Both the position numbers and the translations under genes were made by a program. A stretch of DNA of 64,000 nt from Timema cristinae (taxonomy: Eukaryota; Arthropoda; Insecta; Phasmatodea; Timematidae), in assembly GCA_039000515.1 (NCBI GenBank), contig JBCFYV010002255.1, positions 17,074,890 to 17,138,889 on the forward strand. Reading direction: 5' to 3'. The notes below the pieces were generated by a model. The model worked only from the letters and a program-made list of their open reading frames with translations, searched no databases and was not told the DNA's origin. Below, one piece after another: positions 2,557 through 60,330 of the stretch (position 1 is the first letter of the stretch; each line of letters starts with the position of its first letter).

Positions 2557-2751
2557 CGGACCCAGTATCTATTAGATACCGTTATTTACCATGGGTCCAT
2601 GCTTTTAAATTAACTAATATTTTAAATTTTTCAGAGTTACCGATAATTATGCACTAACGAACTTGATCTTTAGCCAGAATCTCAGCTTGACGCATCAAGA
2701 GGTGTTATTTTGTTGTTGCCAAAATACCGTTTCTCATTTTCTTTTCCTCCA

Positions 2752-3019
2752 AACCCGCCTCGGTGGCGTAGTTGGCTAACGCGCTTGTCGTGTTGAGCTC
2801 GACTTCTAAGGACGGGGAGATCGAGGTTCGAATCTCGGTCGGGTGAACTAGGGGTGATTTTTCCTAAATGGTTTTCCACTCTCCCTCCACGCAAATGCGG
2901 GTTCACTTCCTCTAATTCAACCTTACCAATTCCAAATCCATTAACGTAATTAGTACTTAAAGCGTATAACCCGAACGGGTAGTAAGACGCGGTGCTAAAC
3001 ATTATTATTATTACTATTA
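2752..3019 (+). repeat. tRNA-derived SINE, family A, copy 1 (with TSD)
   Basis: The head CCGCCTCGGTGGCGTAGTTGG contains a pol III A-box (TGGCGTAGTTGG). The B-box is GGTTCGAATCTC near 2825. A conserved body follows (GGTTTTCCACTCTCCCTCC, ACGCAAATGCGGG), then the tail CCCGAACGGG-TAGTAAGACGCGGTGCTAA and an ATT run. A 10-bp target-site duplication TTTTCCTCCA flanks it at 2742-2751 and 3020-3029. This is the reference copy for family A here. Confidence 0.9.
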
Positions 3020-4915: not shown

Positions 4916-5332
4916 TAGTTAAATGTGATAAATTCTTGCCACAAAAAGCGGTATTTTCCTGAACACCCTTTCTATGAAAAATTACTGTAGGTTGTCGAAT
5001 ATTCAGCCAAATTCCAACAGTTTGGACACTCCTGGCAATTTCACCTAGTCTGGCACGCACCCCTCGCTAACCAAAACGAAAGTTTATGTTGCGTTTCATT
5101 AAACGCTATTTCAAAGAGTAAACGTCGCTAAGAAGAAGAGGTTAAATGGATACATTCCCCCATCTCAAGTTGACAAAAATAAGCTTCCGAATTTTCCGAC
5201 GATTAAAATAATTTGGTATTTGATGATTAAAAAATAAAAGTATGTTTAACGTTTATAAAATATTGATGTTTGGAATGCTAACACTTAAATGTAATTCCTT
5301 AATAGTGTAGAGCTCATAGGCAACATCACATA

Positions 5333-5557
5333 TACAGTAGCTCCATGGCTTCTTTGGTGCTGACTGACAGCTCACAGCTGACTTTTGACAGTAAACATTT
5401 AAGTATATACCTGAATTTTGACCGTCAGGAGTGACAGCTTCTAAACACGTGTTTTTGCAGATCATATGGTTCGGTGTAGGAATACATAATTTGGTCTGGT
5501 AACTTTTCAAAGCCGTCAGCTGTCAGTCAACACCAAAGAAGCCATGGGGCTGCTGTA
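5333..5557 (-). mobile_element. MITE F, copy 2
   Basis: The left end is TACAGTAGCTCCATGGC and the right end GCCATGGGGCTGCTGTA. The internal conserved segment is on the minus strand. Arms pair over about 45 bases with few mismatches. Confidence 0.85.
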
Positions 5558-6846: not shown

Positions 6847-7333
6847 CAGCGGTTTCCCAACGTTTTGAATGGCGTACCACCCCAACAATTTCAGTAATTT
6901 GATGTACCACCAAGAAAAAGCTGAATATTTTTTATTTTGGTATATTTTTGGCTTGGTGGTTATATATTTATTAGATTTTATGAGACCCTATCATTTTCCG
7001 ACTTTAATTTGCTATGAGTAGTTTTGTTTGGCTTCTCACGGAGTATACCATCCGGAATAATAATTGCATGTACCACTAGTGGTACAGTGGCCCCACAGCT
7101 TCATTGGTGCTGAGTGACAGCTCACAGCTTTGAAAAGTTACCAGACCAAGTTATGTATCCCTACGCCGAACCATATGATCTGTAAAATAATGTTTTTAGC
7201 AACTGTCACTTCTGACAGTCAACATTTAGGTATATACCTAAATGTTGACTGTCAGAAGTCAACTGTGAGCTGTCAGTCAGCACCAAAGAAGCCATGGGGC
7301 TACTGTACGTCCACCAAAGTTTGGGAACAGCTG
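6847..7333 (+). mobile_element. hAT-like non-autonomous element J with MITE F inside
   Basis: It starts CAGCGGTTTCCCAACG and ends GTTTGGGAACAGCTG, an imperfect inverted pair of the kind seen at hAT ends (CAGnGGTTCCCAAC). Subterminal GTACCACC motifs follow. MITE F interrupts it at 7083-7307. I see no clear 8-bp duplication outside, so the class is an inference from the termini. Confidence 0.55.
7083..7307 (+). mobile_element. MITE F, copy 3, nested in element J
   Basis: TACAGTGGCCCC at the left, GGGGCTACTGTA at the right. It lies between GTACCACTAGTGG and GTCCACCAAAGTTTGG of element J, so it arrived later than J. Confidence 0.85.
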
Positions 7334-7640: not shown

Positions 7641-7898
7641 ACCCGCCTCGGTGGCGTAATTGGCTAACGCGCTTGTCGTGTTGAGCTCGACTGCTGAGGA
7701 CGGAGAGATCGATATTCGAATCTCGATCGGGTGAACTGGGGGTGGTTTTTCCTAAATGGTTTTCCACTCTCCCTCCACGCAAATGCGGGTTCACTTCCTC
7801 TAATTCAACCTTCTCAATTCCTAATCCATTAACGTAATTAGTACTTAAAGCGTATAACCCGAACGGGTAGTAAGACGCGGTGCTAAATATTAATAATA
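7641..7898 (+). repeat. SINE A, copy 2
   Basis: Full-length, about 90 percent like copy 1 by eye. The flanks share TATCATT (7634-7640 and 7899-7905), a likely short target duplication. Confidence 0.9.
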
Positions 7899-7899
7899 T

Positions 7900-20392: not shown

Positions 20393-23300
20393 TTCACGAT
20401 AGGTTTTTACTTGGATGACAGTTCGAAAATCATATGTTTAGGTTTTGGGTTGCCAACACTTCTAAAAGATCACAGTTTTGTTATAAATGTAAAGATCTTT
20501 AATTACCTGTTATATAGTAAATTTAAAATAACGTAAACTTAAGTTTTCTATACTATTTCATTTTTTAAATAATTTCTTTTTATCCTACTCGAAACAATAT
20601 TTAAACATAATTAAACATACTTATTTTTCGTTTTGGAACGTTACTGATTTTGTGTAATATAGTGCACACATTAATATCTTTTAATACGTGCATCGTATTT
20701 ACTTGGAAAAGAGAAAATTGTGGTCATTTTTTTTACATACAATAAAGATTTTATGATTATCTTTATCGTATTTTGAAATATTTAACTGAATAAAATATTT
20801 TCATCAAAAAACTTGTTTACAGTTATATTCAATCATATGGTTTAGATTCGTCCGTCGCCATTTTGAAGTTATGTTCGTTAGAAGTTTTTGTGAAAGTGGT
20901 GTTAATATTTTTTTTAAGGGGAATAAAACTGTAAATAAACTTTGTGTCTGACCTCAAATAAATATATAATATTGGCCTAAATTACTGTGGTTAACTATCA
21001 CATTAATAATATATTACCATCTTTTTCATTATAGTAATCCAAAGTGAGAGGGGGACTGAATTGTATCCACTCGGAATGGTATCCATTACAATAGTTTTGT
21101 AAAAAACTGCTTTGGTGAAAAAATTGGATTTGTATCCACTGGAGTTATATCCACAAAAACTGGAATTGTATCCACTCGGAATGGTATCCATTCCAATAGT
21201 TTTGTAAAAAACTGCTTTTGCGAAAAATTGGAATTGTATCCACTGGAATTATACCACAAAAACTGGAATTGTATCCACAAATGGCTGACTTGAGGTTTAA
21301 CAGAAGGAACGTTTAACGTAAAAAACTTTGTCACACTTCTGGTAGAGGGCAGCAGGATGGAATCTTCTTAACTTACTAATTGTATACTAGAGTGTAGCCT
21401 TGTCTAAAAATATTTTCTTAAACATGAAGTATTCATTCTCTTTAAAGATTGCACTGCATACTAGAAAATTAATTTGCAATCTTATTTAACTGGTAAGATT
21501 CTTTTTTTCAGGTCAATACATTTTAAAGTATGTACAGACTTATATTATTTTAAAGAGATAAATCAATTATTTTATTTGGCAAACAGACTTTAAACACTAT
21601 GTTAAAAAATTATTATTGAAAATCTGGCTTTAATTTATTCAAATATAGTGAGAAACGAGACACTGTTTATGAATTCTGGCAAGAATTTTATTAATGTGAA
21701 TTGGCAGCACTGCTTTGCTCATGTCCTATGCTCAGTGAGCTCTAGTCATGGAAAGAATCGAGTAAAAGTAGTCGACTACACCTTTTGTGTATCGTAATCG
21801 GCTGTACTCGATTCTTCCAGAAATACTCAAGTAAAAATAGTTGCTCACTTTTTTTAATCTTAAGATATAATAAACAATATTGGTTGGCATGTTTAACGTG
21901 TTATTTTAATACAAAATCTTTTTTCCCATACAGTTCATTTTTCAGTCATATCTTATCAGTGCAAGATTTAAAACAATATTCAATCCCCATTCGACATTTT
22001 ATTAATAATACATCTATGACCATATCGGGAATGGAACTCGGGACTGTGGTAGTGTTGAATTTATGCTAGGTGTTTCGTTAAATATTCGAGCCCCAACCAC
22101 ATTACTAACAGGTGACAGTATTTGCAAGCGATGTTCATTACAATTATTACAACCACCATAAAATTTCTGTATTTCCCACACTAGTGGAAATATACTTATG
22201 GCGTGATATTAATATATAGACTTTTGAAGTTGAAAGAAAATGTTAATTTTCATAATTTGGTCGAAAAGAAGTGGTTTAAGAATCAGTTTTTTTAGTATAT
22301 ATTGCGTTCACTAGATACATCAGTGAATGTTGTATAATAAATAATGGGTGCTTATTTCGTATAAGTAATTGTGTTTATTTTTAAGCTACGTAATTGCAAC
22401 TCCGCTGATTAGAAAAAGAATAGCGTTAACGGGGATACCAATGGGATAGAAAGAGACGTAAATATCTATAAGCGTATCTACTACAATCTAAGAGCGAAAC
22501 GACCTATCGGTATTCATTATTTGCTCCATAAATTTATAAAGGTTTTGTACATATTTATGATATTTAGATATTTTAGTAACAATTCATTACACGAATAATA
22601 ATATAGACTGACATTTATTAAAAATTCGCGTGTCTAATCAAGTGTTAAAAGAGAAAAAAATACTCGAAAATTTATTTCTCTCTCACGGATTATATAAAGA
22701 CGACAGATTGAAAATTTCATACACAGACGTCGAAATCAAATGATTATTCGCTGTTTTGATCTGAGTAGGTTAATCTTATGAGCCTAGTATTTCCATTCTT
22801 AGCCTAAATTATAGAGTTTAACCATAGCTAATTTTCGAGAATTAACATCTACAACGATGATCAAGTCACATTTTAAATTCTCCTAACCATAAAATATATT
22901 GATAAATGATAACATCCATCACTAACATTTTGACGAGTTTGAAGAGGAAAATGTAATGTCAAATAGGCCTACTTTTCGGCTTTGCGAAATTTCAGGCAAG
23001 TTAAATTATTCTTTTTATTCTATTTTGTGAGATTGTTGACAGAAAACTTTTAGCAAGCATATTTCACTTTTTAGACATATTTTATTCTTATATATTCTAA
23101 ACATTTCCAGATTTTGACTCCTGATAAAGTTGCATTGTAGATATATCAATTTGTTGTTAAAAAACATTCTTTAAAAATAAAATAAATTTGAAAGTTCAAG
23201 ACTAATTAATTTATGATAGTTATTGTTAAAAAAAATAGGTCTAAATAGAATTAATACACAAGAATAGAAGAATCGAGAACTTAAAATATTTAGAATGAAC

Positions 23301-24295
23301 GTTGGTACATTCCATTACAGTGAAATCAGGTTTAGAATACAATAGGTTTTAAGAATAAATAAAAACCCCATAAAACAATATTATTAATCAAACTTAAAAT
23401 AATAAAATTCCAGATGTCAAAATAATATATCAAGTACAGCCGATTACGATACACAAAAGGTGTAGTCGACTACTTTTACTCGATTCTTCCCATCACTAAA
23501 ACTCACTGAGCATAGGACATTAGCAAAGCAGTGCTGCCAATTCACATTAAAAAAAATTCTTCCAGAATTCATAAACAGTGTCTCGTTTCTCACTATATTT
23601 GAATAAATTAAAGCCAGATTTTCAATAATAATTTTTTAACATAGTGTTTAAAGTCTGTTGCCAAATAAAATAATTGATTTATCTCTTTAAAATTATATCA
23701 AATTCTGTACATACTTTAAAATGTATTGACCTGAAAAAAAAATCTTACAGTTAAATAAGATTGCAAATTAATTTTCTAGTATGCAGTGCAATCTTTAAAG
23801 AGAATGAATACTTCATGTTTAAGAAAATATTTTTAGACAAGGCTACACTCTAGTATACAATTATTAAGTTAAGAAGATTCCATCCTGCTGCCCTCTACCA
23901 GAAGTGTGACAAAGTTTTTACGTTAACGTTCCTTCTGTTAAACCTCAAGTCGGCCATTTGTGGATACAATTCCAGTTTTTGTGGATATAATTCCAGTGGA
24001 TACATTCCAATTTTTCGCAAAAGCGTTTTTTTACAAACTATTGGAATGGATACCATTCCGAGTGGATACAATTCCAGTTTTTGTGGATATAATTCCAGTA
24101 GATACAATTCCAATTTTTCACAAAAGCAGTTTTTTACAAAACTATTGGAATGGATACCATTCCGAATGGTACCATCCGATGGATACAATTCCACTCCCCC
24201 CAAAGTGATACATGTCAGCTGATGGCGTAATGATATATTAGGGATTACTTCTAGTAACATTTCGAGCTGTCATCCAGGTAAACTTAGCTCGTGAA
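20393..24295 (+). mobile_element. Element G, copy 2, interrupted by fold-back H
   Basis: The left end TTCACGATAGGTTTTTACTTGG and right end TACCTGGATGACAGCTCG (complement of 24268-24285) match copy 1. G sequence covers 20393-21047 and 24209-24295. The intervening 3.15 kb is element H. Removing it restores the 3741-4501 layout. Confidence 0.8.
21048..24200. mobile_element. Fold-back element H with tandem subrepeats in its arms
   Basis: Arms of about 765 bp (21048-21812 and 23431-24200) are inverted copies around a 1.6-kb AT-rich centre. The ends are GAGGGGGACTGAATTGTATCC and the complement GGGGGGAGTGGAATTGTATCC. Each arm has two copies of a roughly 106-bp subrepeat (GGAATTGTATCCACTCGG ... ACTGCTTTTGCGAAAAATTGG). 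CAAAGTGA is duplicated at 21040-21047 and 24201-24208. An 8-bp duplication suggests hAT or fold-back type. No transposase motif is visible in the centre, so it is probably non-autonomous. Confidence 0.85.
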
Positions 24296-30929: not shown

Positions 30930-31605
30930 AAAAATTTTTATATGTGTTTCCTGAAAATTCCTTCCTTTTAAAACTAAGCATATGAACGTACCAGCACCAA
31001 TCAACCAATTAAAACTCTTTCCGTTGTCATCTCCAGCAATGATAACAACGTAAACGCCACTAGTGCACTCTAACGGAATTCTAAGGGAACTCTGGGCTCA
31101 CGAGTCGGAGCACAGTAGGCCAGTCAAGCTCTCTTGCATAAAGCCACCCAACCCTACCAATAAGGAACTGTCCAGTTCGACTGAAAATTTGGACGCCAGT
31201 TTGTAACTAAACGCCTGCAGTAGTTTTCAACACAGCCCGCAGTACATCTATGATTAGCATGTTGCCAAATGAAACCACTCGGGGTGTTTAAACTAAACAA
31301 TTTACAGAGTTCCTCTCGACACAAGACATAATATAGTAGTTCTGGTAGGAAGAATGTTATCTGACAGTTGCAAACGTTACCAAAACTAGTTTCATACTTT
31401 AAGTTATATAATATGCAGCTTCCACGTTTGAGAGATATCACAACAAAAAATTTGCATAAACTTATTAAAATTTGATAGTTTTTTAAAATAGTAAAACCAA
31501 AACTAATTTATACCCAAAAACCAAAAAGTTGGTAAATGTCAGTTTGTAAAATGGATATAATTTCCGAAGCATGTAGGGATGTAAGGCGGGGGTAAGGGAA
31601 TGGGA
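30930..31605. other. Spacer with an unexplained frame
   Basis: A 95-codon minus frame (31154-31441) ends with a Trp/Asn-rich run. It has no splice context and no recognised motif. It may be part of a transposon present once. Confidence 0.3.
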
Positions 31606-31862
31606 ATAATAATAATATTTAGCACCGCGTCTTACTACCCGTTCAGGTTATACGCCTTAAGTACTAATCGTGCTAATGGATTAGGAATTGGGAAGACAAA
31701 TTAGAGGAAGTGAACCCGCATTTGCGTTGAGGGAGAGTGGAAAACCATTTAGGAAAAACCACCCCCATTTCCCCCGACCGAGATTCGAACCTCGATCTCC
31801 CGTCCTCAGCAGTGGAGCTCAATACGACAAGCACGTTAGCCAACTACGCCATTGAAGGGGGG
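31606..31862 (-). repeat. SINE A, copy 5
   Basis: Minus-strand full-length copy. Tail complement at 31621-31660, head complement CAACTACGCCATTGAAGGG at the right. TGGGAA lies outside both ends, a possible short duplication. Confidence 0.85.
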
Positions 31863-31909
31863 TGGGAAGAAGAAGTTCTTTATTAATGAACGTGACGCTC
31901 TCCTTAAGA

Positions 31910-31963: not shown

Positions 31964-32427
31964 GGCAGGGCAGGAATTAGCAGCTAGTTTCTCACTGACA
32001 AATGGGTAAAGGGGTGCAACTGGCCTCCCGCCAAATTGGGAAGGGGAACCCCGCCTTTTCCTAGTACAAACATTCTTCAAATTGACGACACACGACCCTG
32101 CTGTATGAGTCGTGAGGAAACAACTTATTGTCTTCCTCAGTCCCCCACCTCCTCTACTTCTCCTCCGTTTCTTACCCACTCACAGTGCAGAGTAATTGAA
32201 CGCATTAGTAGCCAGAAAACTTTCTTGGCACAGTAATGGCATTGGGAAATGTGATACTAAGCTTATAACCATCACTCCTAAAAAAAAACACAAGACATAT
32301 AAAACTCAGAATATATAAATTAATAGTTTCACCAAATATAAAGAGAATAGAAAATAGCGCTAGATGGAGAAATAAATCCGATTAGACGAGCGTGTGACGT
32401 CACTCAACACACAAGCCAACACGTTAG

Positions 32428-32644
32428 TACAGTAACCCCATGGCTTCTTTGGTGCTGACTGACAGCTTTGAAAAGTTACCAGACCAAATTATGTATCCCT
32501 ACGCCAAACCATATGATCTTCAAAAACATGTGTTTAGCAACTGTCACTTCTGACAGTCAAACTCTAGGTATATACCTAAATGTTGACTGTCAGAATTCAG
32601 CTGTGACTGTCAGTAAGCACCAAAGAAGCCATGGGGCTACTGTA
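32428..32644 (+). mobile_element. MITE F, copy 6
   Basis: TACAGTAACCCCATGG and CCATGGGGCTACTGTA ends. The internal segment is on the plus strand. The left arm lacks the CTCACAGCTGAC stretch. Confidence 0.85.
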
Positions 32645-32904
32645 TACACAAACAATATATGGAAGACAAACTAATTTGCTAAAAATTAGGTAACATTTTA
32701 GAACATTAAATAAAATAAACCTTTAAAATCAAAACCAATATCCAATTAACATCATATATTTAATTATTTAAACTAATATGTTTATATATGTGTGGTTGTC
32801 TTCATATTAAAATATAGCTGCTATATACTGGATGACGTAAGCAATGACATAATTAAATTCCTCCAAGTGGCGCCACCTTTGTATTCTCTTTACATTGGTT
32901 TAAC

Positions 32905-33252
32905 CGGTTGTTCTCTATGGTTGTAAAACGTGGTCTCTATCTACATGACGAGAAGAAATGTATAGGATTAAAACACAAAGTACTTAGGAAAACAAAAAAA
33001 GGGATTAAGGTAATGTATAGTATAGGAGTTTACATAAAGATGCACTACATATACTGTATTCATCACCGGACATTGTTAGACTAGTAAAATATCGCATATT
33101 ATGGTGGGCAGGACATGCAGTGCGAATGGAAGAAACTAGAATCAAGTTCAAGGTAAAGATTGGCAAAAATAAAAGGAAAAGACCCGTGGGAAGAGAGAGA
33201 ACTCAGACGGGAGGATAACATTAGAATAGGCTTGAAAATATTGAGTATAATA
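32905..33252 (+). pseudogene. Decayed non-LTR retrotransposon, RT C-terminal region
   Basis: The plus strand reads LYGCKTWSL at 32924-32950, then stops, then LYSSPDIVRLVKYRILWWAG followed by HAVRMEETR, KRKRPVGRER, and finally VDWI*LAQDRDRV at the first unit of the adjacent minisatellite. These are the landmarks of the region downstream of the RT core in insect-type elements (YGCETW, SPNIIR, RWAGHVARM, KRPLGRPR, DWIDLAQDRDRW). At least four stops and a frame change break it. The 5' RT and endonuclease are absent. Confidence 0.8.
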
Positions 33253-34320
33253 AGGTGGACTGGATATAACTAGCTCAAGATAGAGATAGGGTGTAATGAG
33301 GTGGACTGGATATATAACTAGCTCAAGATAGAGATAGGGTGTAATGAGGTGGACTGGATATAACTAGCTCAAGATAGAGATAGGGTGTAATGAGGTGGAC
33401 TGGATATAACTAGCTCAAGATAGAGATAGGGTGTAATGAGGTGGACTGGATATATAACTAGCTCAAGATAGAGATAGGGTGTAATGAGGTGGACTGGATA
33501 TAACTAGCTCAAGATAGAGATAGGGTGTAATGAGGTGGACTGGATATAACTAGCTCAAGATAGAGATAGGGTGTAATGAGGTGGACTGGATATATAACTA
33601 GCTCAAGATAGAGATTTGGTGTAATGAGGTGGACTGGATATAACTAGCTCAAGATAGAGATAGGTGTAATGAGGTGGACTGGATAATAACTAGCTCAAGA
33701 TAGAGATAGGGTGTAATGAGGTGGACTGGATATAACTAGCTCAAGATAGAGATAGGGTTAATGAGGTGGACTGGATATAACTAGCTCAAGATAGAGACAG
33801 GGTGTTAATGAGGTGGACTGGATATAACTAGCTCAAGATAGAGATAGGGTGTAATGAGGTGGACTGGATATATAACTAGCTCAAGATAGAGATAGGGTGT
33901 AATGAGGTGGACTGGATATAACTAGCTCAAGATAGGGATAGGGTATAATAAGGTGGACTGGATATAACTAGCTCAAGATAGAGATAGGGTGTAATGAGGT
34001 GGACTGGATATAACTAGCTCAAGATAGAGATAGGGTGTAATGAGGTGGACTGGATATAACTAGCTCAAGATAGAGATAGGGTGTAATGAGGTGGACTGGA
34101 TATATAACTAGCTCAAGATAGAGATAGGGTGTAATGAGGTGGACTGGATATAACTAGCTCAAGATAGGGATAGGTATAATAAGGTGGACTGGATATAACT
34201 AGCTCAAGATAGGGATAGGGTGTAATGAGGTGGACTGGATATAACTAGCTCAAGATAGGGATAGGGTGTAATGAGGTGGACTGGATATAACTATCTCAAG
34301 ATAGGGATAGGGTGTAGTAA
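33253..34320 (+). repeat. Minisatellite of ~46-bp units made from RT coding sequence
   Basis: About 23 tandem copies of a unit starting AGGTGGACTGGATATAAC and ending AGATAGGGTGTAATG. The length is 46 bp, or 48 bp where ATATA is ATATATA. The two length variants are interspersed, and late units carry GGGATAGGG or AATAAGG changes. The first unit reads VDWI*LAQDRDRV in continuity with the retrotransposon remnant to its left. The unit length is not a multiple of three, so the array is not coding. Confidence 0.95.
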
Positions 34321-34334
34321 TGTAGACATTTTTC

Positions 34335-34573
34335 TAGCATCGCGTCTTACAACCTTTTCAGGCTGTACGTATATGTTCTAATTATGATAGTGTGTTAGAG
34401 GTTGTGTAAGGTTTAATTTAGTGGAAGTGTATCTGAATTTGCGTGGAGGGAGGGTAGCAAACAATTGAGGAAAAACCCCTCTCAGTACAACCAACAGGGA
34501 TTCTAACCTCAACCTCCCCTTCATCGGCAGTCTAATCTATTGCGAGAGGATACTTTTAAAGTTAGACCATGCG
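34335..34573 (-). repeat. SINE B, decayed
   Basis: Tail complement AGCATCGCGTCTTACAACC, body complement GCGTGGAGGGAGGG, and a degenerate B-box region. The head ends with TAGACCATGCGG. It follows the minisatellite within 15 bases. Confidence 0.75.
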
Positions 34574-34653: not shown

Positions 34654-35131
34654 AGACCCGCTTATACACCCATTGAGACTATAGACGTTACCCAGCAAAC
34701 AACTCCTTTGAGAAAAGGGGCTGCAGCAGGTGACATTGGTAGGTCAGCCAAAGGCGAGACGGGGGAAGGAAGGGAAAAGGTAAGAGTAGTAATATATAAG
34801 TAATATCACAGTATCGCTTTGTCGGTGAATTTACACGCCATAACCCCTGCCCATGCCAACAACAACTATGGTAATGTAATGTGTGGACGTGGACATTTGT
34901 AAACTACAAAGGTACGAGCTACCTCACCTTCACTTATTATATTTCCTCCTCATTGCTATGAACCTAGTTGGTTCCTTTCTCTCTGAGAAGAAAGCCTCAC
35001 CTCCCCTCTTTTTGCCGAAAAGGATAATGGGATTTTTCTGAAACAATATGTTGAGCGAAGCGAATATGGTTACAGTAGGGAGTGAACTATATATAGTTGG
35101 ATTCTAAAGTTTCCTGTGTAGTGAACAAGTG

Positions 35132-35355
35132 TACAGTAGCACCACGGCTTCTTTGGTGCTGACTGACAGCTCACAGCTGAATAATGACGGCTTTTAAAAG
35201 CGGAAAGACCAATTATGTATCCCTACGCCGAACCATATGATCTGCAAAAACATGTGTTTAGCAGCTGTCGCTTCAGACAGTCAACATTTAGATATATATC
35301 TAAATGTGTACTGTGAGCTGTCAGTCAGCACCAAAGAAGCCACGGGGCTACTGTA
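35132..35355 (+). mobile_element. MITE F, copy 7
   Basis: TACAGTAGCACCACGG and CCACGGGGCTACTGTA ends with TA on both sides. The internal segment is on the plus strand. Confidence 0.85.
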
Positions 35356-35429
35356 GGTTTACTCGATTTATTTGTTTACGAATATATTGTTTTAATTTCT
35401 CTCAACCCCTCGAACTCGAGATTTTGATA

Positions 35430-38445: not shown

Positions 38446-38683
38446 TACAGTAGCCCCATGGCTTCTTTAGTACTGACTGACAACTCACAGCTGACAGCTG
38501 ACGGCTTTGAAAAGTAACCCGACCAAATTATGTATCCCTACGCAGAAACAAATGATCTTCAAAAACATGTGTTTAGCAGCTGTCACTTCTGATGGTCAAA
38601 ATTTAGGTAAATACCTACATTTTGACTGTCAGAAGTCAGCCGTGAGCTGTCAGTCATCACAAAGAAGCCATGGGACTACTGTA
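38446..38683 (+). mobile_element. MITE F, copy 8
   Basis: TACAGTAGCCCCATGG and CCATGGGACTACTGTA ends. The internal segment is on the plus strand. Directly after it, 38750-38880 looks like a headless minus-strand SINE B. Confidence 0.85.
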
Positions 38684-43836: not shown

Positions 43837-44097
43837 ACCCGCCTCGGTGGCGTAGTTGGCTAACACGCTTGTCGTGTTAAGCTCTACTGCTGAGGACGGG
43901 GAGATCGAGGTTCGAAACTCGGTCGGATGAACTGGGGGTGGTTTTTCCTAAATGGTTTTCCACTCTCCCTCCACGCAAATGCGGGTTCACTTCCTATAAT
44001 TCAACCTTACCAATACCTAATTCATTAGCGTAATTAGTACTTAAAGCGTATAACCCGAACGGGTAGTAAGACGCGGTGCTAAATATTATAATTATTA
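43837..44097 (+). repeat. SINE A, copy 6
   Basis: Full-length. TTATTAATATA occurs at 43826-43836 and 44098-44108 as an 11-bp duplication. Confidence 0.92.
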
Positions 44098-47106: not shown

Positions 47107-47344
47107 TACACTAGCCCCATGGCTTCTTTGGTGCTGACTGACAGCTCACAACTGACAGATAACAGCTTTGAGAAGTAACTAAACCAAATTATGTATCCCT
47201 ACGCCGAACCATCAGATCTGAAAAAACATGTGTTTAGCAGCTTCACTTCTGACAGCCAAAATTTTGGTATATACCTAAATGTTGACTGTCAGAAGTCAGC
47301 TTTTAGCTGTCAGTCAGCACCAAAGAAGCCACGGGGCTACTGTA
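47107..47344 (+). mobile_element. MITE F, copy 9
   Basis: TACACTAGCCCCATGG and CCACGGGGCTACTGTA ends. The internal segment is on the plus strand. Confidence 0.85.
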
Positions 47345-50000: not shown

Positions 50001-50250
50001 TACAGTAAGTATCCCCATGACTTCTTTAGTGCTGACTGACAAATCACAGCTGACTTCTGACAGTCAACATTTAGCTATATACCTAAATTTTGACTGTAAG
50101 AAGTGACAGCTGCTAAACAAATATTTTTGCAGGTCATTTGGTTCGGCGTAGGGATACATAATTTGGTCTGGTAAGTTTTCAAAGCCATCAGCTGTCAGCT
50201 GTGAGCTGTGAGCTGTCAGTCAGCACCAAAAAAGCCATGGGGCTACTGTA
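50001..50250 (-). mobile_element. MITE F, copy 10
   Basis: TACAGTAAGTATCCCCATG and CATGGGGCTACTGTA ends. CAGCTGTGAGCTGTGAGCTGTCAG near the right shows a small tandem expansion of the arm motif. TACAGTAAGA is also duplicated just outside on the left. Confidence 0.85.
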
Positions 50251-59589: not shown

Positions 59590-60330
59590 CTCTACCAGGT
59601 AAAATTCCTTCATTTGCTTTACTACACTTTGCTGTTATATAAGAGCGTACAAGAGTGAAATAAGGTAAGTTAAGTCTGTTGTCTTCAAAGCTTTAAGATA
59701 AATCAATAAAGTGACTTAAGTCTACTTTCCAACGCTTTAAAAGTGAATACCATAAAGGGAAGTTGATCTATTATCTTAAAAATTTAAAAGAGATTACAGT
59801 AAAGCATTTTAAATTTGCTATCGTACAGGATATAACAAAATGAAGTAGAGTAAGCCTTTTAACTAGCAGGAAAAAAAAGTGAAGTAAAGGAAGCTAAGAC
59901 AGCTACACAGCTAGTTTACAAGGCATAAAAGAGTGAAAAAAACTAAGTAAATACACAACCTTATAGGGTATAATAAAGTGAAATAAATTAAGGCTAATAG
60001 ATTACAGGGTGTAGCAAAGTAAAGTAACCTACTAGCTTACAAGGTAACGGAGTAGAGTGAAGTAAGGTTTAGCTGATAGCTTACATGGTAACGGAGTAGA
60101 GTGTCAGCTGATAGCTTACATGGTAACGGAGTAGAGTGTCAGCTGATAGCTTACATGGTAACGGAGTAGAGTGAAGAAAGGTTTAGCTGATAGCTTATAA
60201 GATAAAACGGAATGTAGTAAATAAAGTTAAAGATCATATCTTACAAAGTAAAACAGAAACCAAATAAGGCTGGTTTTTAGAGGACAATACAGAGAGCAGT
60301 AAAGCAATATAAAGCTGTTATCAAAGTGCA
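59590..60330 (+). repeat. Old tandem region with a recent 35-bp expansion
   Basis: Phrases such as GTGAAATAAGGTAAG, AGCTTACAAGGTAACGGAG and AAAGTGAAGTAAAGG recur irregularly over 700 bp. Within it, 60025-60195 holds four near-perfect units of AGCTGATAGCTTACATGG-TAACGGAGTAGAGTG. Confidence 0.75.

Follow-up and report, generated by a model that had tools for sequence, protein, structure and literature searches.

A 23-unit minisatellite in Timema cristinae is probably the local, expanded form of a variable-number repeat inherited with a LINE family

The window analyzed here, i.e., the whole stretch of 64,000 nucleotides from the Timema cristinae genome, contains a tandem array that is located between a decayed remnant of a LINE and an antisense copy of a SINE. 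The features at the locus are:

32942..33246, + strand: decayed remnant of the C-terminal end of a LINE ORF2, preceding the array (blastn, tblastn)
33247..33292, + strand: unit 1 (NKVDWI*LAQDRDRV), at its native place in the LINE frame (same ungapped tblastn alignment, unit table)
33293..34313, + strand: units 2-23, 45-48 bp each (TRF, unit split, wrap-around alignment)
34314..34328, + strand: probable decayed partial 24th unit (wrap-around alignment, to about 34327)
34330..34548, - strand: antisense SINE copy abutting the array (blastn against other copies in the window)

TRF identified the repeat at 33248-34316 with a period of 46, 23.0 copies, 95% matches and a score of 1911. Splitting the array at an anchor yielded 23 head-to-tail units at 33247-34313 (the end of the last unit, 34313, was placed by hand) with 13 distinct sequences and sizes of 46 bp (13 units), 48 bp (five), 45 bp (three) and 47 bp (two). 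The 48-bp units are numbers 2, 5, 8, 14 and 19, each of which harbors a TA insertion, and the mean pairwise divergence among the 23 units is 0.025. Both methods reproduce the count of about 23 copies of a 46/48-bp unit in the first-pass annotation, which had placed the start of the feature at 32905; the array starts at 33247 and the earlier part is LINE remnant. Minisatellite arrays are described as composed of up to about 100 short head-to-tail units, the unit size being a matter without consensus (PMC6947457), a description that covers the 23 copies of a 46-bp unit found here as well as other arrays of up to 40 units in the same genome. The interleaving of 46- and 48-bp units had been taken as a sign of higher-order duplication blocks, and TRF scores a period of 140 equal to that of 46. 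Shuffles of the unit order lend no support to such blocks (lags 3 and 5, p=0.15 and p=0.06, respectively; longest repeated run, p=0.11; evenness of the spacing between 48-bp units, p=0.56), in tests for which 23 units provide little power.

At the right end of the window array no match to the native LINE end was found using blastn, and its expected place is occupied by the SINE, which displays mostly 72-76% identity to other window copies within 34328-34534. We read this SINE as being of tRNA-like origin from motifs seen by eye; ARAGORN and Rfam searches over the window found nothing, and a by-eye search for a target-site duplication of the SINE gave none that was convincing. The abundant SINE-like family of the window (31599-31871, others at, e.g., 2744-3018, 7652-7899 and 43848-44096; about 71-90% identical) displays tRNA-like motifs, identified by eye only. 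The window also harbors a palindromic, MITE-like family of about 220-240 bp, of which one copy is found on each side of the array (32427-32645 and 35131-35358) and further copies at, e.g., 1768-1994, 5331-5557, 7082-7310, 38446-38683, 47107-47344 and 50008-50250; because the family is this common, the bracketing of the array is likely due to chance. A large inverted-repeat element at 21058-24169 resembles a foldback-type transposon; its arms of about 750 bp are about 1.6 kb apart, with pieces that are 84-98% complementary and, in their outer parts, imperfect tandem repeats with units of 36 and 52 bp. Furthermore, the segment 53820-54083 on the minus strand is similar (tblastn, E about 1e-9) to the C-terminal end of another LINE, distinct from the first, and a repeat at 60071-60173 with 2.9 copies of a 35-bp unit and 100% matches (TRF) is probably very young.

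When the C-terminal sequence of a LINE was used as the query of a protein search, 7,998 scored relatives were obtained, and among the best 120 of these, three are named as Periplaneta proteins. The best of the 120, P0025, aligns to 32997-33290 in frame 3 (tblastn, E 2.5e-23, 49% identity), ungapped and with internal stops, and the alignment passes straight through unit 1. The translation of unit 1 and the sequence KRKRPVGRER to its left share one reading frame, which confirms the first-pass reading of the first copy as VDWI*LAQDRDRV in continuation of the remnant. The remnant had been assigned to the reverse-transcriptase region; it is in fact the C-terminal end of ORF2, which in a relative lies downstream of the reverse transcriptase domain. 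The evidence for this domain (RVT_1, PF00078) comes from relative L018, where it was found upstream on the same strand (E 1.2e-7, 32.1 bits against a cut-off of 29.6), and not from the window's own copy; a piece of relative L002 gave no RVT_1 match, and the broken remnant of the window itself gave no hits in either a protein search or a Pfam search. Using blastn, the remnant (32942-33238) was found to match LINE copies of its own genome, and it is on average 27% different from 30 of these copies (mean flank distance 0.268, best 0.218). In the same-genome relatives the LINE end is followed by a native C terminus and a TAAG-type tail, a 3' end that is common to the relatives, and an exact 30-base pattern from the unit is absent from viral contigs. 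The coding-LINE origin of the 46-bp unit is secure. The unit length of 46 bp breaks the ORF2 frame, and the junction between units reads DRDRV and then stops, so that the final portion of ORF2 is lost wherever a copy has at least two units. For these reasons the array is most likely a passenger; there is no hint of a selected role, and we propose no function.

The genome to which the window belongs (1.29 Gb in 7,605 contigs) was searched using two patterns. A pattern for the start of the unit gave 42,315 matches and its control none, where the matches include native single copies (the pattern is found at 17 of 35 loci with a single unit or none). A pattern specific to the unit-unit junction gave 29,231 matches, of which 18 are within the window, and none with the reversed control. 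When applied to the fetched loci, the junction pattern was found at none of the 35 loci with a single unit or none and at 413 of the 581 known junctions in 54 array loci. Because it misses known junctions and does not hit single-unit loci, the number 29,231 is an underestimate rather than an overestimate. With 46 bp counted for each, these junctions correspond to about 1.3 Mb, or 0.1% of the genome, and at 7.6 matches per array they would roughly represent several thousand arrays, an estimate from a sample that is biased toward long arrays.

The setting of these arrays was determined at 32 loci on contig C1, which were picked by exact pattern match (12 from the unit-start list and 20 from the junction list, where the lists put exact matches first) and which include the single-unit locus L040 as well as L076 and L077, which are cut on the left and right sides, respectively. 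The LINE region was found using blastn at the left side in 29 of the 32 loci and the native LINE end at the right side in 22. The number of units per array is 2 to 40, the counts for L094 and L106 being lower bounds in arrays that reach or almost reach the fetched edge. The array is a repeat of variable unit number that occupies a constant position in an abundant LINE family, i.e., as in elements of the Ogre/Gmr9 type, it is found at the same place in many insertions of one TE family.

Comparison of units, called by wrap-around alignment, indicates how the arrays change after insertion. The nearest relative of a unit is found in its own array for a fraction 0.725 of 444 units from 28 arrays, compared with 0.046 (maximum 0.076 of 500) in shuffled data. 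Five arrays display no such clustering (L064 0.18, L065 0, L066 0.18, L067 0 and L068 0), and four of these are very diverged. Units at the ends exceed inner units in divergence in 31 of 41 arrays. Longer arrays are more uniform (length against divergence, rho -0.40, p 0.003, 55 arrays), a trend that may in part reflect sampling, as short arrays are mostly protein hits and long ones exact pattern matches. The loci L103 and L107 have left flanks that are identical over 290 bp and downstream regions with 95.7% identity over 1,045 bp, and harbor two and four units, respectively; they are one insertion in two regions, either alleles or duplicates. Taken together, the array-specific units and the difference in length between L103 and L107 indicate that arrays change in place, and the unit patterns are those expected from the gain and loss of whole units at each site. 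Minisatellites are typically length-polymorphic between individuals. In another pair of LINE copies on C1, L046 and L056, which are separated by about 170 kb, an oddly deleted flank was seen by eye to be identical over about 80 bp, and the number of units (two and eight) and the right ends differ; the likeness may be due to gene conversion or to a shared subfamily.

For 39 arrays with a usable LINE flank, the divergence of the units was related to that of the flank, and the ratio was below 0.5 in 23 arrays, 0.5-0.8 in six and at least 0.8 in ten. The window array displays the lowest ratio of the 39, 0.09, and the best explanation is an old, broken LINE copy with a young or recently homogenized array of 23 units. 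In the last ten, the units have diverged almost as much as the flanks, which suggests that several units already existed at about the time of LINE insertion and that the LINE probably brought a short tandem seed with it.

Whether arrays were inherited or arose repeatedly was addressed using a protein search of the window's own genome, in which 150 of 22,055 candidates were scored and 50 of the 150 were inspected (30 and a further 20). Two or more units were found in one of the first 30 and in 14 of the 20 added hits, which were fetched from 25 chosen because their match stopped early; the resulting count of at least 15 in 150, in which L103 and L107 are two regions of one insertion, is a floor for the proportion of array-bearing copies rather than an estimate of it. 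In a tree of left flanks, one subfamily has no arrays in 16 rows, and the other clade, of 28 rows, contains 14 arrays and 14 singles, intermixed. The array label requires 10 changes on this tree, compared with 12.7-12.9 when shuffled (as low in 25-28 of 500), i.e., the clustering of array status is only mild. This question rests on the second of two trees, in which singles and arrays come from one protein search; an earlier flank tree with strong clustering (4 changes vs 16) was set aside here, as its singles and its arrays had been collected by separate searches. In both trees the window copy is placed with copies that carry arrays, namely in a set of five (96/87) in the first tree and with L029 (92/84) in the second. 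Near-identical duplicates (L012, L020, L021 and L022) were dropped from both trees, from the microrepeat test described below and from the divergence references, and were kept in the local test of the junction pattern; L029 was dropped from the microrepeat test, and L017, where the unit caller chose another LINE copy, from the second tree and the junction test. Distances between units of different loci were 0.132 for first to first, 0.147 for first to last and 0.161 for last to last, and because first units are only slightly closer to each other than to last units, no clear positional inheritance is discerned.

These data bear on four explanations of the array. In the one that we consider probable, a variable-number repeat of the LINE family, the seed of which was inherited, has expanded locally to give the array. 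Our confidence is high for the LINE origin of the unit, its recurrence in the genome at the same LINE position, the mostly array-specific units and the difference in length between L103 and L107; we infer the inheritance of the seed, as well as the molecular mechanism. The intermixing of arrays and singles within one clade is also what would be seen if the LINE inserted with a single unit and the 46-bp duplication re-arose in place, and it fits repeated duplication as well as repeated loss. Such recurrent birth could use a GATAGG direct repeat that is spaced by 46 bp in native copies (9 bp exact in L009 and 7 in L005), and it is in line with 29 of the first 30 protein hits being single (L017 by eye), in a set where full-length matches favor singles. 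However, the microrepeat is short: 23 of 25 native copies have no exact match of at least 7 bp with a spacing of 45-47 bp where it would be expected, and the idea that the repeat is unusually strong was not supported, as repeats of equal or greater length occur by chance at other spacings. Recurrent birth, against which the ten old arrays and the array-free subfamily also speak, appears rather unlikely to us, and we favor, with moderate confidence, one or a few ancestral duplications that were spread by retrotransposition and later lost in some copies. The database proteins P0001-P0005 (jgi or ena contigs) contain in-frame duplications of this LINE C-terminal region that are longer, so that the region duplicates elsewhere too.

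The first-pass annotation had proposed that the minisatellite was born from the coding end of this single retrotransposon copy. The coding origin holds. At this locus unit 1 sits in native register, and among the 39 arrays this one has the smallest unit divergence in relation to its flank; the birth in this copy is contradicted by the 29,231 junctions in the genome and by other family members in which the same unit already occupies the same place of the LINE. This recurrence and shared position rule out local birth as the source of the unit, and as a complete account it is extremely improbable; the expansion from a few units to 23 near-identical ones may well have taken place at this locus. 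Seen in one window, a TE feature that is spread over the whole genome can resemble a local birth. It is equally improbable that the unit belongs to a free satellite family that shares LINE sequence and was inserted beside the LINE. Two of the 32 loci on C1 (L042 and L076) are without a LINE flank on either side in BLAST, and four of eight arrays fetched from contig C3 are without a usable left LINE flank, as a free satellite would leave them. Against this stand the 30 of 32 loci where blastn found LINE sequence beside the array, on one side or both, the appearance of L042, which by eye is LINE-like on both sides, the left end of L076, which leaves the fetched stretch, and the native right end in which all eight C3 arrays finish, by eye.

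If the seed was inherited, as we consider probable, an ancestral element would have acquired a second copy of a 46-bp stretch of the C-terminal coding end of ORF2, perhaps by duplication between the GATAGG repeats. Copies of the element with a few tandem units would then have inserted at many sites, and at each site whole units may have been gained and lost independently via unequal exchange or slippage, such that some arrays would have remained short and decayed while others grew and were homogenized. In the window, the antisense SINE occupies the position expected for the 3' end of the LINE. A more tentative extension is that one duplication at the coding end of a LINE created a hereditary, self-expanding module, where elements with a broken ORF2 kept moving, each insertion planted a seed, and thousands of minisatellites with the same unit resulted, the unit number perhaps also changing during reverse transcription. 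The arrays offer many replicate minisatellites in one genome, with the same unit and flanks and with differing age, length and chromosomal setting, so that one may ask why a short tandem seed expands or dies, which a single locus does not allow; arrays spread by mobile elements have been described as such a natural experiment (PMC7004042).

Among the titles and beginnings of abstracts listed in literature searches, mostly open-access, none concerned a minisatellite within the terminal coding part of a LINE in insects, and the main text of a paper on Timema centromeres contains neither "46 bp" nor "minisatellite" (PMC11691646). In soybean, the element Gmr9/GmOgre is described as carrying a polymorphic minisatellite region, with 63,841 copies of which ninety percent are element-associated (PMC3305785). 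The two cases share a polymorphic minisatellite at a fixed place of a retrotransposon family; Gmr9/GmOgre is an LTR element with five interleaved unit families in the region between the coding end and the LTR (PMC3305785), whereas the element studied here is a LINE with one unit family inside the coding sequence. Tandem repeats in the 3'UTR of Ogre elements are reported to be spread as short arrays by the element, plant satellites arising by their expansion (PMC7004042); this system differs in being an LTR element, in the untranslated region and in plants. Satellites derived from LINEs include PROsat (L1 ORF2, Phodopus) and HinfI/SCR1 (CR1, chicken), which likewise contain LINE ORF2 sequence in a tandem repeat (PMC9659126). 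These are described as satellites that resemble part of a LINE, while the arrays described here reside within individual LINE insertions. Minisatellites were proposed by Haber and Louis (1998) to begin by slippage or unequal exchange between direct repeats of 5-10 bp (cited in PMC6947457), and the unit described here is similarly bounded by a direct repeat of 6-9 bp; the example given for that model is Alu, and here there is one place in one LINE family and an unexceptional microrepeat. Minisatellites borne by TEs are thus already a known kind, of which the window case is an unusually rich example.
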